A DNA stretch of 64,000 nucleotides, taken from the NCBI RefSeq assembly GCF_009649955.1, contig NZ_CP045875.1, positions 2,922,001 to 2,986,000 on the forward strand. The letters run 5' to 3'. How positions within the stretch are numbered: the first letter of the stretch is position 1; the number at the start of each line of letters is the position of its first letter. Source of the stretch: Heliorestis convoluta (GTDB lineage: Bacteria; Bacillota; Desulfitobacteriia; Heliobacteriales; Heliobacteriaceae). Both the position numbers and the translations under genes were made by a program. Below, piece after piece: positions 6,463-64,000 of the stretch. A model generated the notes under the pieces. The model worked only from the letters and a program-made list of their open reading frames with translations, was not told the origin of the DNA and did not search any database.

Positions 6463-7674
6463 CTATTTCGCCTTTGCTTCCATGTTGGCAATAAATTCAT
6501 CAAAAAGAAAGGCTGTGTCTTCAGGACCCGGAGCCGCTTCCGGGTGATACTGCACAGAGTAGACAGGTAAATGGCGATGACGCAGTCCTTCTACGGTGCC
6601 ATCATTGACATTGCGATGACTTACTTCAACAAACTCGGGCAAAGACTCTTCTTGAATGGAGTAGCCGTGATTTTGTGACGTAATATAGACGCGACCCGTT
6701 CTCAAATCCTGTACAGGATGGTTACCACCACGGTGGCCAAATTTCATCTTATACGTATCACCACCGAAGGCCAGTGAGAGCAATTGATGGCCTAAGCAGA
6801 TACCAAAAATTGGTATGTTCTTCTGGGGCTCTAAAAAATTCTTGATCACCTCAATGGCTGCCGTAGCATCTTTGGGATTGCCAGGACCATTGCTTAAAAA
6901 GATGCCTTGCGGTGAAGCTGCTTGAATTTCTTCTACTTTCGTGTGAGCGGGGAAAACCATGAGCTGCAGATCAAGACTCTTTAACATGCGCAAAATGTTT
7001 TCCTTGATTCCTAAATCAATGACGGCCACACGAAAGCCTTCGCCGGGAATCACATAAGATTGCGGTGTGGTAACTTTTTCAATCAGGTGTGGACCGGAGA
7101 CAAGGTGCTGAGAAAGTTTTTGCAGATGGACTTTCCAGGTCTGATACGCTTCGTTAGGGACCAGATCCCGAATCTCATCCATCGTCATGATGGCACCACA
7201 ATGTTTCGCTGCGATGGCTTCGCCTTCCCAGACTTTTTCTTCAGGGCCTCCCATTAAAATGGCGCCTCGCAAAGCCCCACATTGGCGTATGCGGCGCGTC
7301 AAAGCCCTGGTATCGATGCCTTCTAGACCTGGAATGCCCTGTTGCGCTAGGTAGTGCTCAATCGTTTTTTCAGAGCGATAGTGGGAAGGTCGTGCACAAG
7401 CTTCACGAACCAAAAAGCCACGCACTTGAGGCTTTACCGACTCTACATCATTGGCATTGACGCCATAGTTCCCGATGAGAGGATAGGTCATGGTTACAAT
7501 CTGACCGCAGTAAGAGGGGTCCGTTAGTATTTCTTGGTATCCTGTCATCGCCGTGTTAAATACGACTTCGCCTGTAACATTGGCCTGACAACCAAAAGAG
7601 CGACCTTTCATAATGGTGCCGTCTTCTAGAAGCAGGTATGCGTTTTTGGTACGAGTCTCCTTTTTTGTACTCAT
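6463..7674 (-). CDS. carA: Carbamoyl-phosphate synthase small chain
   Basis: The glutamine amidotransferase subunit of about 403 residues, which feeds ammonia from glutamine to CarB. The N-terminal domain carries [20 protein letters not shown]. The class I amidotransferase domain has the nucleophile cysteine in [16 protein letters not shown] and the His-Glu pair in [13 protein letters not shown]. The start is ambiguous: ATG 7674 has AAGGGTG upstream, while GTG 7683 would overlap the argD stop as GTGA. Either choice implies translational coupling to argD. It lies 14 nt before carB. Confidence 0.96.
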
Positions 7675-8906: not shown

Positions 8907-9794
8907 CTACTTAACAACCATCGTCCCGATACCCTGATCGGTAAACACTTCTAATAGCAGTGAGTGCGGGATTCGACCATCGATTATATGTGTCGTACCT
9001 ACACCGCCTTGCAAGGCTTGTACACAGCAGCGAACTTTTGGAATCATGCCTCCACTGAGAATGCCTTCTTCCATCAAGGGCTCTACTTGATTGATTTGCA
9101 AAGAGGAAATAAGGCTATCAGGATCGTTTCGATCCCGTAAAATGCCTTCTACATCGGTCAATAACACCAACTTGTCAGCGCCTAAGGCCTGGGCAATCTC
9201 TCCAGCTGCCGTATCAGCATTGATGTTATAGGCTTCTCCCCCTTCACCAGCACCAATGGGCGCAATAACGGGTATATAGCCTTGTTCTATGAGACCTCGA
9301 ATGAGATCAGGATTGATTTTGACGACATCGCCCACATAGCCGATATCGGTAGGAATTCGTTCGCCGGCTTCATTTTTTACGACTTCAAAGCGTTTTTTCG
9401 CTTTGATTAAACCTCCATCTTTCCCGCACAAGCCGACAGCTTTACCACCTTGCCGTTGCAATCTCGCCACAATTTCTTTGTTCACTTTGCCGGCTAAGAC
9501 CATTTCGACCAGTTCCATGGTTGCTTCATCGGTGACGCGCAACCCTTGGATAAAGGTAGATTGCAAGCCGACTCTCTGAAGCATGCTATTGATCTCAGGA
9601 CCGCCTCCATGAACGATAACAGGGTTGATCCCAACATATTTCATTAATACAACGTCTTTGATTACTGCTTCTTTGAGGTCATCGTTCAGCATGGCTGCAC
9701 CGCCGTATTTGATTACGACAGTCTTTCCTGCAAACTTTTTTATGTAAGGCAGGGCTTCTACGAGAATCCCTGCTTTTTCGAGCGCACTGTTCAA
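8907..9794 (-). CDS. argB: Acetylglutamate kinase
   Basis: An amino-acid kinase of about 295 residues that phosphorylates N-acetylglutamate. It has the phosphate-binding [11 protein letters not shown], the substrate loop IVHGGGPEI and the ATP-site region [12 protein letters not shown]. An N-terminal helix before TVVIKYGG is present, as in the arginine-inhibited hexameric type, so feedback inhibition is plausible (inference). TTG at 9794 is favoured because AAGGGAG lies 8 nt upstream. An alternative ATG at 9827 would overlap argJ by 20 nt. Confidence 0.95.
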
Positions 9795-55247: not shown

Positions 55248-55273
55248 ACGGGTTCTTTCACCCCCCTTTTTTC

Positions 55274-55445
55274 GAAAAACAAAGAGCCTCTACCGTATTA
55301 AACAGCAGAGGCTCACTCAGCACAAAGCAGACGCATGGAAATAAAGAGTGCACTACTCTTTTCTAAATCTATCTCCATTCATCCACCTCGGCAGGCGCTG
55401 AAGCCTTAAGCCGTAATCACATACGGCACCTGCTGTCTACAGCGG
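55274..55445 (-). ncRNA. Ribosomal protein L10 leader with transcription attenuator
   Basis: The rplA-rplJ gap of 265 nt holds, on the minus strand, the pattern of the L10 leader. CTGTAGACAGCAGGTGCC pairs around a multi-branch region with GCGCCTGCCGAGGTGG, and an A-rich linker follows. The leader ends in a terminator hairpin (55284-55291 with 55307-55314) followed by TTTGTTTTT. Binding of the uL10-bL12 complex in such leaders favours termination, giving feedback on rplJL. This fits the Rfam L10_leader architecture by eye; a covariance-model search would settle it. Confidence 0.85.
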
Positions 55446-55512
55446 GGTTCTTCAATTTTAAAAGCATACAATCTATATAATAGCACAGTCGCCGCTTTAT
55501 GTCAACGACTAT

Positions 55513-58019: not shown

Positions 58020-58751
58020 TTATCCTTTACCAGTCGATGCATCTTTCGCCAAGGTCCTAACGTCGCGGCTGCCCTTCTCTTTTGCGCCGTTCGATGCATT
58101 CATGCGTTCTTCATCACGATTCTCTAAGTATTTCTCTAGCTTCCTTTTTACTCGTTGCAAAGCATTGTCAATCGACTTTACGTGACGCTTTAGTTCGATT
58201 GCAATCTCTTGATAGGATTTTCCTTCTAAGTACGACATGAGCACTTTCCACTCTAGAGAGCTCAAGATCTCGCCCATCTTTTCTTCAATATCGTCAAACT
58301 CTTCTCTGCTTATGATCAATTCTTCTGGGTCTGTAATCTTCGTACCCGAAATTACATCAAGAAGAGTTCGATCAGAGTCTTCGTCATAAATAGGTTTGTT
58401 CAGTGACACGTAAGAGTTAAGCGGTATATGTTTTTGGCGAGTAGCTGTCTTAATGGCTGTAATGATCTGGCGTGTGATGCAAAGCTCAGCAAAAGCTCTA
58501 AAAGACGATAACTTATCACCCCGAAAGTCTCGGATGGCCTTGTAAAGACCGATCATGCCTTCCTGGATAATATCTTCGCGATCAGCACCGATCAAAAAGT
58601 AAGAACGTGCTTTTGCTCTTACAAAGTTCTTATACTTGTTGATAAGATACTCCAGCGCATCTTCGTCGCCCTCTTTTGCTCGTTCTACAATTTCTTCATC
58701 CATGAGCTGTTCTAGATCGTCCAGAAATTCTCTCTGGGCATTCACACTCAC
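58020..58751 (-). CDS. sigH: RNA polymerase sigma-H factor
   Basis: A sigma-70-family factor of about 243 residues that starts sporulation and stationary-phase genes. Region 2 shows GADREDIIQEGMIGLYKAIR with FRAFAELCITRQIITAIKTA. Region 4 shows LEWKVLMSYLEGKSYQEIAI and a helix-turn-helix KRHVKSIDNALQRVKRKLEK. The last 30 residues add a charged tail. The start is uncertain: GTG 58751 follows GGGGGCG, and upstream in-frame codons reach 58814. It is preceded by its own promoter. Confidence 0.93.
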   Translation of the reverse strand: MSVNAQREFLDDLEQLMDEEIVERAKEGDEDALEYLINKYKNFVRAKARSYFLIGADREDIIQEGMIGLYKAIRDFRGDKLSSFRAFAELCITRQIITAIKTATRQKHIPLNSYVSLNKPIYDEDSDRTLLDVISGTKITDPEELIISREEFDDIEEKMGEILSSLEWKVLMSYLEGKSYQEIAIELKRHVKSIDNALQRVKRKLEKYLENRDEERMNASNGAKEKGSRDVRTLAKDASTGKG

Positions 58752-58861
58752 GCCTATCGCCCCCACCACAAGAGTTTCCCCACAAAAATATGCCCGATCC
58801 GTGTGAAGCCTCAAAGCTAAACGCCTGTCAGGTTCAGGCGGGTTGTCCTCAGAATAACATC

Positions 58862-58891
58862 ATTATACCTGAATCTCTTTTTCACAGTCAA
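58862..58891 (-). promoter_or_regulatory. Promoter of sigH
   Basis: On the minus strand TTGACT (58886-58891), an 18-bp spacer and a perfect TATAAT (58862-58867). It overlaps the region between yacP and sigH and gives sigH a separate transcript. Confidence 0.8.
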
Positions 58892-58929
58892 GGCTAGACA
58901 TTGTAGCCATTGCAAAGTGTCTCTTAATT

Positions 58930-59436
58930 TTACCATTTTTCTCTACGCATTCGTTCTAATCTCCGTCGAATATCTTCACTTAATCTTCCATCCAGGTGGT
59001 TTTCTTCTACGGGAGGGCGGTAATGTTTTTTTCTATCTTTGGATGCTACTTTCACTTGGTGATATAGTTCCCTAACAGTGACTCTGCAGGCACCTCGCCC
59101 CAATGCCATCGATTGTTCCACTGCATCTCCCGTAGCAACCCAAACATTTCTACGGCTTGCATACCGACCGAGAAGCCTTTCAATATACCTGTCTGCTGTT
59201 TCGTCTTCTTTGGTGTAAACGACTTTGAGACCAGATACTTTTTCAATCCTCTCTAACCCACCTTTTACCAGGTGGGCATCAAAGACGATAAGGACTTCAA
59301 GACCTTGTAAAGCTCCATATTCAGCCAGTAAATCTATCAGCTTTTCTCTAGCATGCTCAAAGCTTTGCCCTTTCAGCTCTATTAGATCTGGCCAGGCATT
59401 GAGCACGTTGTAACCATCAACGATGAGAATGTCTTG
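58930..59436 (-). CDS. yacP: NYN-domain endoribonuclease YacP (Rae1-like)
   Basis: A 168-residue PIN-like nuclease. QDILIVDGYNVLNAWPDL opens with the metal-binding aspartate. LIVFDAHLV, TKEDETADRYIERLLG and VWVATGDAVEQS supply further acidic residues. In B. subtilis the homologue Rae1 cuts mRNA in the ribosomal A site. ATG 59436 overlaps the rlmB stop by 20 nt. Confidence 0.9.
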   Translation of the reverse strand, partial: QDILIVDGYNVLNAWPDLIELKGQSFEHAREKLIDLLAEYGALQGLEVLIVFDAHLVKGGLERIEKVSGLKVVYTKEDETADRYIERLLGRYASRRNVWVATGDAVEQSMALGRGACRVTVRELYHQVKVASKDRKKHYRPPVEENHLDGRLSEDIRRRLERMRREKW

Positions 59437-60280
59437 CATCGGTAAGTTCACTCTGCAAAGCCTGACTTCCCTGGTGAATTCGCATTCTTTCGTACATCAA
59501 CAAGGCGCCTGCTACGGAGGCATTTAAAGATTGTACTTTCCCGTTCATAGGAATGGTCACGAGAAAATCGCACTTGCTCTGTAGTAGCCGCGATATGCCT
59601 TTTCCTTCACTACCAACGATAAGACCTAAGGGTCCACTAAAATCTTGTTGGTAATAAGGTTTTTCTCCCTCTACAACACTTCCAATCATCCAGAGACCTT
59701 CTTTTTTCAGCTCTTCTACAGCCATGACTAAGTTGGTAACTCTAGCAATAAGCATATGCTCGGTAGCTCCAGCTGCGGCTTTCGCTACTGTACTCGTAAT
59801 GCCCACACCTCTTCGCTTAGGCAAAATGACACCATGAACACCGGCGCATTCTGCTGTACGCAAAAGAGCTCCTACATTATGGGGATCTTCTAAGCCGTCT
59901 AGAATCAATACAAAGGGAGCTTCTCCTTTGGCTCTGGCTTGATCTAGTATTTCAGAAATGTCGACATACGAAATAGAAGCAACGTAAGCCATTACACCTT
60001 GGTGGTTTCGTGTATCGGCTTGTATATCAAGAGCATTGCGATCCACTTCTATAATTGGTATGGACTGTTCTTTCGCAAGGGCTACAATTTCACGAATCGA
60101 ACCCTCTCGTGCCCCTTTGGCAATGATAAGTTTGTTGATAGAACGATTTCCTTTTAGGGCTTCTAGGACAGGTTGACGACCTACAAGTAGATCTTCTCTT
60201 TGCTCTTGCTCCTGCTTCGATGACTGTGACAAACGAGGTGAACGAGGCGAGTTTGTCGAACGCTTTTTTCCTTTCATCAT
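59417..60280 (-). CDS. rlmB: 23S rRNA (guanosine-2'-O-)-methyltransferase RlmB/TrmH family
   Basis: A 287-residue SPOUT methyltransferase. A basic leader (1-30) is followed by LLVGRQPVLEALKGNRSINK. The knot motifs are LDGLEDPHNVGALLRTAECA, VGSEGKGISRLLQSKCD and IPMNGKVQSLNASVAGALLM. RlmB usually modifies G2251; the exact target is inferred. It lies 124 nt downstream of thyX, and the gap shows no clear signal. Confidence 0.93.
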   Translation of the reverse strand: MMKGKKRSTNSPRSPRLSQSSKQEQEQREDLLVGRQPVLEALKGNRSINKLIIAKGAREGSIREIVALAKEQSIPIIEVDRNALDIQADTRNHQGVMAYVASISYVDISEILDQARAKGEAPFVLILDGLEDPHNVGALLRTAECAGVHGVILPKRRGVGITSTVAKAAAGATEHMLIARVTNLVMAVEELKKEGLWMIGSVVEGEKPYYQQDFSGPLGLIVGSEGKGISRLLQSKCDFLVTIPMNGKVQSLNASVAGALLMYERMRIHQGSQALQSELTDARHSHR

Positions 60281-60404: not shown

Positions 60405-61748
60405 TTAGCTTTTAGAGCTATTCGTCAGAAACATTTCTCTCACTTTTAACTGTTGACCACAGGAAAGTTTTCCTTCTCTACAGGTACCGTGTACACAAGT
60501 CGGAAGGGACTTCTCGTAAAGTACATTTGATAATGTACGCAAAATATTAAGTTTTTTTATCGCTAACTCTCTTATCTCCCATTGAGCATTCATGCAAGTC
60601 CTATCTGCCAACATAGAAATATCCATTCTCGCATTGGTTGAGATAATTAGCTTTATTTGATCGCAATTTAATAGAAAAGAAAATGCTTTTTCATAGCCTT
60701 CTTCATTCGCGATTTCTGCTCGAAATTCCTTAATCTCATCTACCAGTTCTACAAACTCCTGATAAAACTTCGAATTGACAATACTTTCGGGGATTTTCAC
60801 CTTCCTTTCTTTTTCTTGTATCAGTATTGAAAAGTCTTCTCGATGATTTTGTGAAAGCCTATGCCTTAGCTGTTGATGATACGTTACAAGACTACACATC
60901 ATACCAAAAGTTGTTCTCGCCTGCTCTGCTATGCTTTCATGTCCATAACCTAGTACCCTCTCAACTACACCTCTCGCTTTTTGAGGAGCACCTGGACCCC
61001 AAAGAGCTATTTGTTGTGAAGGTGTTCCTTTTAAGGTGCTTGCTAAAGCACCGAGACCTACTTTCATCTCAATATCACGAAAGTGGTTTAGAAGAACAAC
61101 GCCACTGAGATCGTTGATTTTATCCAGGTCTTCCTTGTAGAAACTTTCTACTATAGTGCGGTTATATTCGTTATCCTTCCCTTGGGGTAATAACATTATC
61201 AGATTCGCAGGAAGCCGTAATAGTAGTTCCTCTCGTAATTCTTTGAAGATTGTTGCGTATTTTTTATCATTGATCAGGCAAAAAAGATCTACTATCTTAT
61301 CACCAGACATAGCTACACATAGGTTCGTAAAGGTAGATAAGGGCAATATATACCTTGCATCTTCAATAGGAATTCCGTAGAGATAATTCTCAACTCTTGG
61401 TCTTCCTCTAAAAGAGCTATCTTTTAATTGGGTCATTCTCTCATACAGTTGAAATGCTCTCGTGGTCAAATCAAGAGCTTGGTTATTTTTTGCACTATCG
61501 TTAAGTTTAGGGAGGCTATAAGAGTTTATGTTCATTGTAACATATCTTTGACTTTGTTGTACGTAGGAATCTTTAAGCTCACATAGTAATGTACTTTGAA
61601 TCCGATTAATACCCTCAAGTACAAAAGAAATGTTTACAGTTTTTAAAATGTGCTTCAATGACGACTCGTCAATATTTACTATTTGGTTGCCTTCAATCCA
61701 TCGAGCCACCTTCTCCAAACCCGTTGATTCGAAATTAGATATTTTCAA
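60405..61748 (-). CDS. thyX: Double-length ThyX-like flavin-dependent thymidylate synthase
   Basis: A 447-residue protein, twice the usual ThyX length of about 220-250. The N-half (about 1-215) keeps S61-YVQ-QSQRY (65-69) and EDARYILP (129-136), but CEL (56-58) stands where RHR is expected. The C-half (about 225-447) keeps GHESIAEQA (269-277), RHR (295-297), STNAR (370-374) and NAQWEIR (387-393), but lacks the serine and SQRY part. The RHR-x7-S signature is thus split between halves. A C-x4-C-x6-C motif ends the protein (418, 423, 430). The position between mrnC and rlmB is the normal thyX place in Clostridia. TTG 61748 has GGGAGG upstream. Activity on dUMP is inferred. Confidence 0.85.
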   Translation of the reverse strand: MKISNFESTGLEKVARWIEGNQIVNIDESSLKHILKTVNISFVLEGINRIQSTLLCELKDSYVQQSQRYVTMNINSYSLPKLNDSAKNNQALDLTTRAFQLYERMTQLKDSSFRGRPRVENYLYGIPIEDARYILPLSTFTNLCVAMSGDKIVDLFCLINDKKYATIFKELREELLLRLPANLIMLLPQGKDNEYNRTIVESFYKEDLDKINDLSGVVLLNHFRDIEMKVGLGALASTLKGTPSQQIALWGPGAPQKARGVVERVLGYGHESIAEQARTTFGMMCSLVTYHQQLRHRLSQNHREDFSILIQEKERKVKIPESIVNSKFYQEFVELVDEIKEFRAEIANEEGYEKAFSFLLNCDQIKLIISTNARMDISMLADRTCMNAQWEIRELAIKKLNILRTLSNVLYEKSLPTCVHGTCREGKLSCGQQLKVREMFLTNSSKS

Positions 61749-62028: not shown

Positions 62029-62469
62029 TTAACAATCAACTGAAACTTCTTTCTTCGTTGCATGGCCGCTTCTTGCATCTAACCAGCTCTTCAGATAAGG
62101 TTCGAGAAGCATCAATCGCTCTGGGCTTTGTAAAGACCAGTATCCAACGAGACATTCAAAACCTGTAGCAAGTCGGTACGTTTGTACGTCTGTCGATTTG
62201 GGGCACTTCCCAGAGTCAGCATTTCTGCCTCGGCGAACCCATTCGAGCTCTTCTTCATCCAATTGTCCTTCTAACCAGCGAAGAAGTTGCAATTGTGCTG
62301 GCGCTTTTACAAGCTCTACAGCCAGTCGATGCAGCTTTTGCACTTTCAATATACCTGATTGAATCAAAAATTTCCTTACCTGCAGCTCGTAAACAGCATC
62401 ACCCAGATAAGCAAGGGCAAGAGGCGAAGGCAGTTCTGCAGGCCTACGCTTTATTACGCTCTCGGTCAT
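62029..62469 (-). CDS. mrnC: Mini-ribonuclease III
   Basis: A 146-residue RNase III-like enzyme without a double-stranded-RNA-binding domain, which matures 23S rRNA ends in Firmicutes. SPLALAYLGDAVYELQVRKF holds the catalytic acidic residues. RRGRNADSGKCPKSTDVQTY and ATGFECLVGYW follow. ATG 62469 overlaps the cysS stop as ATGA, so it is coupled. Confidence 0.93.
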   Translation of the reverse strand: MTESVIKRRPAELPSPLALAYLGDAVYELQVRKFLIQSGILKVQKLHRLAVELVKAPAQLQLLRWLEGQLDEEELEWVRRGRNADSGKCPKSTDVQTYRLATGFECLVGYWSLQSPERLMLLEPYLKSWLDARSGHATKKEVSVDC

Positions 62470-63920
62470 TTTTTCTTCCAACGCGTTCCTTGGGCAGTAT
62501 CTTCGATTAGGATGCCCAACTGATCTAAACCTTGACGAATCTGATCGGCTGTTGCCCAATCTTTCTTTTTTCTTGCTTCTGCACGGATGGCGATGATAAG
62601 TTGCAACAATCCATCAACGACGCCTTCTTGGTCTTCATTCTTCACTGATTCAAACTGCAAGCCAAAGACAGTTGTGAAACTATCAAAGGTTTCTTTGACT
62701 TCTTGCAGCAATGCGCGGACTTCTGCACTGGTAAAAGAAATGTTCTGATGTAATAAACTATTCGTTTCACGAGCGAGATCGAAGAGGAGAGAAAGCGCAA
62801 GGGCCGTGTTAAAGTCATCGTTCATTGCTTCATAGAAGCCATCTTTTGTTTTTTGTAGCTGCTCTTTGAGAGCATGAATTTGCGGTAAAGACTCGCTTTC
62901 AACAGGTTCTTTCTCTAACTTTTGATCCAACTTCTCTTGTAGCAGTTGTCTGCTTGTGCGCAAACGTTCTAAGCCTTTCCGAGCTGCTTCTAGCTTGCTA
63001 TCATCGAAATCTAAGGGACTTCGGTAATGCGTCGAAAGAAGGTAAAATCGAATGACTTCTCCTGAAAATTTCTCTAGAATCTGTCGTAGCGTAAAAAAGT
63101 TCCCGAGTGACTTCGACATTTTTTCTTGATTAATTGTTATAAAGCCATTGTGAATCCAATATTTAGCCATCGGTCCAGAGCCTATGCAAGCTTCTGATTG
63201 GGCAATTTCGTTTTCGTGATGAGGAAAGATAAGATCTTGTCCTCCACCATGAATATCAAATTGTTCACCTAAGTATTTTAAGGCCATGGCAGAGCACTCA
63301 ATATGCCATCCTGGTCGTCCCGGCCCCCAGGGACTATCCCAGGCTGGCTCTCCTTTTTTAGCTGCTTTCCAGAGGGCAAAGTCCATGGCATGTTTTTTTC
63401 GGTTATCTACTTCTACTCGAGCTCCGGCTTGTAAGTCTTCCAGGGTTCGCCCTGATAAGCGACCATAGCTTTCAAAAGCGGGAATGTGAAAGTAGACATC
63501 GCCATCCACTTCGTAAGCATGACCGCCTTGAATCAGCTTTTCTATCATTTCGATAATTTCTGGTAAGTGATCGCTCACTTTCGGATGTTTGCTCGCCTTT
63601 TTAATGTTAAGGGCACTTGCATCTTTGTAGTATTCTTCGATAAAGCGAGCGGAAAGAACCAAGGGATCTTCTCCCAGCTCTTTCGCGCGATTGATAATTT
63701 TGTCATCTACGTCAGTAAAGTTTTGAATATAGGTAACTTCATAGCCTATAAACTCTAAATATCGACGTATTGTATCAAATACAACAAAGGGTCTGGCGTT
63801 TCCTAGATGAATATAATCATAGGTTGTCGGTCCGCAAACATAAATACGCACTTGCCCTGCTTTATACGGAACAAACGTCTCTTTTTTCTGATGTAGACTG
63901 TTGTATACTCTGAGACTCAC
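62466..63920 (-). CDS. cysS: Cysteinyl-tRNA synthetase
   Basis: A 484-residue class I synthetase. The HIGH-like signature is in IHLGNARPF, and the zinc cysteine is in VCGPTTYDY. HIECSAMALKYLGEQFDIHG and KMSKSLGNFFTLRQ (the KMSKS motif) follow. GTG 63920 with GGAGGGT upstream is chosen. The start lies inside the end of the upstream cysE-like frame. Confidence 0.98.
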   Translation of the reverse strand: MSLRVYNSLHQKKETFVPYKAGQVRIYVCGPTTYDYIHLGNARPFVVFDTIRRYLEFIGYEVTYIQNFTDVDDKIINRAKELGEDPLVLSARFIEEYYKDASALNIKKASKHPKVSDHLPEIIEMIEKLIQGGHAYEVDGDVYFHIPAFESYGRLSGRTLEDLQAGARVEVDNRKKHAMDFALWKAAKKGEPAWDSPWGPGRPGWHIECSAMALKYLGEQFDIHGGGQDLIFPHHENEIAQSEACIGSGPMAKYWIHNGFITINQEKMSKSLGNFFTLRQILEKFSGEVIRFYLLSTHYRSPLDFDDSKLEAARKGLERLRTSRQLLQEKLDQKLEKEPVESESLPQIHALKEQLQKTKDGFYEAMNDDFNTALALSLLFDLARETNSLLHQNISFTSAEVRALLQEVKETFDSFTTVFGLQFESVKNEDQEGVVDGLLQLIIAIRAEARKKKDWATADQIRQGLDQLGILIEDTAQGTRWKKK

Positions 63921-64000
63921 TTTCTTTACCCTCCAGTTCCACAATCCGTTCTTCTAACTGGGTGATCTTGCGTTGTAAGCATAAGATCATCTCAGCCATT
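63862..64000 (-). CDS. cysE: C-terminal end of a probable serine acetyltransferase
   Basis: A partial frame runs from the window edge to TAA at 63862. It codes AEMILCLQRKITQLEERIVE and a polar tail, 46 codons in all. A closing coiled coil like this, reached just before cysS, is typical of clostridial CysE, and cysE-cysS is a common gene pair. Only the tail is visible, so the assignment rests on position and the coil pattern. It overlaps cysS by 59 nt. Confidence 0.6.
   Translation of the reverse strand, partial: MAEMILCLQRKITQLEERIVELEGKESESQSIQQSTSEKRDVCSV

Follow-up and report, generated by a model that had tools for sequence, protein, structure and literature searches.

ThyX, the flavin-dependent thymidylate synthase, is an essential enzyme and a drug target. 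Its four composite sites are difficult to study, since a mutation always affects every subunit. In the site of the canonical homotetrameric enzyme (PF02511, TIGR02170; T. maritima TM0449, M. tuberculosis ThyX), as described for M. tuberculosis, subunit A gives R95-H96-R97 and R199, subunit B gives S71 and R190, and subunit C gives R87, S105, R107 and the lid residue Y108 (PMC6514825). The independent structure of PolB, in which F79, R82, H83, R86 and R193 come from one monomer and E94', S96', R98' and R166' from another (PMC5003785), agrees with that of M. tuberculosis; R166' (= R147) thereby joins the C group, and H83 (= position 75) the A group. Residue numbers of the ThyX family follow Thermotoga maritima, corrected for a 12-residue tag; in this numbering, S88, R90 and Y91 are important in ThyX catalysis and R174 in dUMP activation.

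In the alpha-prime-2 form of the archaeal tRNA-splicing endonuclease, catalysis is assigned to one repeat, and the other has a structural role. This enzyme, in which a homotetramer gave way to a dimer of fused, subfunctionalised halves (PMC6379350), is the nearest analogy in logic to the double ThyX of Heliorestis convoluta considered here, although its fold is unrelated to ThyX and each site of the double ThyX would be built from both halves. Domain duplication in ThyX of Chloroflexi was reported by Valas and Bourne (2009), who called it uncharacterised (PMC3224940); the duplication is common to both proteins, but the active-site split is not described there. In the open-licence literature, a tandem or two-domain ThyX was found only in that paper, and no description of the complementary split of double ThyX was found; a separate model for double ThyX is absent from NCBIfam. 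Canonical ThyX shares with the double protein the fold, the same active-site set, distributed over both halves in the latter, and, in many relatives, the gene slot. The double ThyX differs from it as a fused duplicate, with part of the site missing from each half and two sites, not four, predicted per assembly.

Double thyX gene and its chromosomal position

The window (the whole stretch of 64,000 nucleotides that was analysed) contains an open reading frame for the double ThyX, with the sequence GGGAGGA six bases upstream of its start codon. The features of the gene are as follows:

60405..61748, minus strand: double ThyX gene, 447 aa, TTG start, two Thy1 domains
61134..61748, minus strand: N-half, residues 1-205, keeping the dUMP/catalytic loop and lacking the GHxS helix, RHR, NAR and R174 (hhalign and AlphaFold2)
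60408..61109, minus strand: C-half, residues 214-447, keeping the FAD-binding and R174 side and lacking SxRY and R147 (Thy1 match, hhalign)
61602..61604, minus strand: R49, equivalent to T. maritima 70 and M. tuberculosis R87, dUMP contact, N-half only
61575..61583, minus strand: CEL, residues 56-58, where RHR is expected (N-half)
61542..61553, minus strand: S66-Q-R68-Y69, equivalent to S88, R90 and Y91 (N-half), invariant in alignment A1 of relatives
61341..61364, minus strand: EDARYILP, residues 129-136, R132 being equivalent to R147 (N-half)
60933..60944, minus strand: GHES, residues 269-272, equivalent to H53 and S55 (C-half)
60858..60866, minus strand: R295-H296-R297, equivalent to R78-H79-R80 (C-half)
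60627..60635, minus strand: N372-A-R374, equivalent to N163 and R165 (C-half)
60600..60602, minus strand: R383, equivalent to R174, the dUMP-activating arginine (C-half)
60570..60590, minus strand: NAQWEIR, residues 387-393, including Q180 (C-half)

The gene order around the double thyX is cysS-mrnC-[thyX]-rlmB-yacP-sigH, with the following neighbours:

62029..63944, minus strand: cysS and mrnC, upstream neighbours; they mark the slot that thyX usually occupies in clostridia
58020..60280, minus strand: downstream neighbours rlmB, yacP and sigH of the clostridial thyX slot

The same slot holds ordinary ThyX in relatives, among them one of the same genus. Since that species (G001) encodes its ordinary single ThyX there (L117, 7035-7724), a replacement of one form by the other has taken place within the genus. 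The double gene is located elsewhere in G005 and G007, two relatives from the same family. An ordinary ribosomal protein L10 leader (RF00557, 53.1 bits) was also found in the window, at 55271-55460, preceding rplJ on the minus strand.

Two matches of Pfam Thy1 (PF02511), each above the cut-off, were found in the protein (125.4 bits against a gathering score of 24.8); the score for the NCBIfam equivalog TIGR02170 is 75 bits, below the cut-off of 87.9. The per-half alignment to Thy1 called for in the original prediction thus placed both halves above the cut-off, and neither contains a complete motif. The signature RHRx7S is not complete in either domain: the C-half alone has RHR, and the N-half alone has S..RY. 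The N-half reads CELKDSYVQQSQRYV at the place of RHRIASYSQQSQRYV in ordinary ThyX, with the x7 spacing between CEL and S66 preserved, and the C-half reads RHRLSQNHREDF. The motif assignments proposed from the sequence were all recovered: QSQRY at 65-69 with CEL in place of RHR, and EDARYILP, in the N-half; RHR at 295-297 without SxRY, GHES, NAR and NAQWEIR in the C-half. Counted over the two halves, all catalytic residues of ThyX are present in one chain. Motif-based annotation would wrongly label such proteins as broken.

The ThyX fold was recognised by sequence in the C-half and by modelling in the N-half. The AlphaFold2 model of the N-half alone, from an alignment of 47 sequences, had a pLDDT of 89.1 and a pTM of 0.78; it matched ThyX structures with Z up to 13.4 and an rmsd of 2.9 over 171 residues (first unrelated protein, 5.4), in agreement with Foldseek, although the alignment included single ThyX sequences, which lean the model to the ThyX fold, so that this match is not independent of homology. 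A full-chain monomer model from six sequences was discarded (pLDDT 48), and a mixed alignment with type III doubles (see below) was dropped, as it put the type III N-half on the C-half of the window protein.

Division of active-site residues between the halves

Each half was aligned with 38 ordinary ThyX by profile-profile comparison (hhalign). Among the positions at least 95% conserved in these proteins, 13 are kept in the N-half only, 18 in the C-half only and three in both. Residues R70, S83, Q86, S88, R90, Y91, Y133, E144, D145 and R147 are represented only in the N-half, and H53, S55, E58, H74, Q75, R78, R80, R165, R174 and Q180 only in the C-half, which also keeps H79. The retained half alternates along the chain: H53 and S55 (C-half), R70 (N-half), Q75 and R78-R80 (C-half), S83-Y91 and Y133-R147 (N-half), R165, R174 and Q180 (C-half). 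Loss of a single contiguous segment cannot account for such a partition, and neither segment loss nor a domain swap would yield this order.

Set against the published subunit roles, the partition is consistent throughout: every named family-conserved residue of groups A and B is found in the C-half, and every one of group C in the N-half. A label test with four A and five C residues gave 1 in 126, a value that is descriptive only, adjacent residues being non-independent. Since RHR/R174 and SxRY/R147 of one site lie on different subunits in the crystal structures, the loss is complementary and does not represent decay.

The double ThyX is very probably a working flavin-dependent thymidylate synthase that originated from a duplicated and fused ThyX and forms a two-chain pseudo-tetramer; its assembly, number of sites and activity we infer. 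An ancestral ThyX would have been duplicated and fused, after which active-site residues would have been lost complementarily. Two chains would form a ThyX-like pseudo-tetramer of two N-domains and two C-domains. In an ordinary tetramer, RHR and R174 of each site come from subunit A; B contributes the serine of GHxS and the arginine of NAR, and C contributes R70, SxRY and R147. In the double ThyX, the C-domains would supply the A and B roles and the N-domains the C role. Each dimer would thus contain two complete sites, the other two positions being dead. The pseudo-heterodimer suggested in the original prediction, with sites built from both halves, fits the published assignments (PMC6514825, PMC5003785), the assembly being a predicted one.

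It could be supposed that the C-half alone is catalytic, the N-half being a structural scaffold with relic motifs, given that the C-half matches single ThyX better (E 7e-35) than the N-half does (Prob 99, E 5.5e-18). This is highly improbable, as S88, R90, Y91 and R147 are absent from the C-half, while the N-half keeps exactly these residues, invariant down to 50% identity. A change of substrate, in which the fused protein would act as a ThyX-like methylase on UMP or another nucleotide, has a parallel in PolB, which shows that relatives of ThyX can use UMP (PMC5003785); since the two halves together supply the conserved dUMP contacts, and no other source of dTMP was found in the genome, it is extremely unlikely.

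A fused thymidylate synthase with complementary halves would be a clear case of complementary degeneration within a metabolic enzyme. Each subunit role would be tied to one half and could therefore be mutated alone, and the double ThyX indicates that two sites should suffice.

Thymidylate supply and conservation

The genome is represented by one complete contig of 3,218,981 bases (98% completeness). The search for a second thyX or a thyA that had been proposed was carried out, and thyA, a second thyX or other Thy1 gene, and thymidine kinase of PF00265 are all absent from this complete single-contig genome. A cell without thyA, another thyX and thymidine kinase needs this gene for dTMP, barring a salvage kinase of another family. 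As indirect evidence on the synthesis of dTMP from dUMP, CH2-THF, NADPH and FAD, no other source of dTMP was found in the genome. The bacterium seems to make thymidine by means of the fused double ThyX, neither half of which should work alone.

Double ThyX of any type was found in 27 genomes, and ThyA is missing from 26 of them; the remaining one, G099, has a weak partial match. Thy1 was found in 332 of 398 sampled genomes of the phylum. As absence of ThyA is common in a phylum where ThyX prevails, this absence shows the need for the gene and not an unusual association.

Double ThyX of the window's type (type I) was found in ten of the 398 sampled genomes. Full-length relatives, 50-64% identical to the window protein, belong to the same family and class, to Orenia, Halanaerobacter and clostridial MAGs. 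The motifs QQSQRYV, EDxRYILP, RHR and NAQWEIR, as well as N372, R374 and R383, are invariant in the 14 full-length or partial sequences of alignment A1, and the division of residues between the halves was seen in 16 full or partial relatives; in view of this invariance at 50-64% identity, the split is due neither to chance nor to sequencing error. Both halves are under purifying selection, with dN/dS in close pairs of 0.11-0.21 for N-halves and 0.05-0.12 for C-halves.

These data bear on the loss of activity named as an alternative in the original prediction, namely, that the protein is a degenerate ThyX with another role and no thymidylate synthase activity. The absence of a full motif from each half and the TIGR02170 score are consistent with it, and the atypical ThyX of Corynebacterium glutamicum, described as not required for thymidylate (3fnn, 3ge9), is a precedent. 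However, the complete genome offers no other candidate thymidylate synthase, neither ThyX nor ThyA, and no thymidine kinase (PF00265), and the catalytic residues of the protein are invariant in opposite halves under strong purifying selection, which makes degeneration very unlikely.

A group II intron that encodes a reverse transcriptase (RF02004 at 6748-6937, RF00029 at 9259-9354) interrupts the type I double thyX of the genome G232 (L115, 6245-10273) at EDAR|YILP, beside the codon of the catalytic arginine. The only thyX of G232 would need splicing of the intron; a thymidine kinase is present in this genome.

Other double ThyX proteins

Duplicated ThyX is widespread and comes in several forms. 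Three further groups of double ThyX were found in a survey:

Type II: G236, G182, G394, G140, G099 and phage MT835736
Type III: G305, G143, G261, G067, G415 and most of the IMG/VR contigs L205-L216
Type IV: G375, G213, G379 and, by its motifs, jumbo phage Tunturi_5

Types II-IV resemble type I in that the N-half has SxRY and R147 and the C-half has RHR; in some type III C-halves only RH is present, the third residue being different. R174 is present in every C-half profile and is lost from N-halves of type II, less clearly in types III and IV. The N-half of types II-IV has H53 and S55 (T or S in type II), which type I has in the C-half. If the Chloroflexi ThyX is of type III, it differs from the window protein in this respect.

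In terms of the 222 tetramer, types II-IV would correspond to subunits B and C paired as N-halves, and type I to A and B as C-halves; either pairing would give two complete sites per dimer. It is rather probable that duplicated ThyX settled into complementary halves along two symmetry axes of the same tetramer; the resulting obligate pseudo-heterotetramer, with two sites, would exist in two geometries and may stem from independent duplications. In the tree of halves, all N-halves group together (87), as do the C-halves of types I and II (88); with very long branches and the bias of shared motif loss, this tree is compatible with one or several duplications. In plasmid records only single ThyX, and no double one, was found.

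In Tunturiibacter phage Tunturi_5 (PP885688.1; L217, 1869-3425), a double ThyX of 518 aa with the same motif split adjoins the gene of dCMP deaminase. The product of the latter supplies dUMP. In the type III double ThyX of IMG/VR contigs L213 and L216 (826 and 897 aa), intein-like inserts occur in the GHS/SVAEH motif or close to it, as seen directly in the sequence of L216. Among single ThyX, a small intein-like insert is located between RHR and SQRY in L105, and proteins of 320-400 aa with in-frame inserts within the Thy1 domain were found in L071 (G096), L073 (G231), L074 (G204), L072 (G437) and L088 (G268); in several of these, the inserts are located between RHR and SxRY or just after and are possible inteins.
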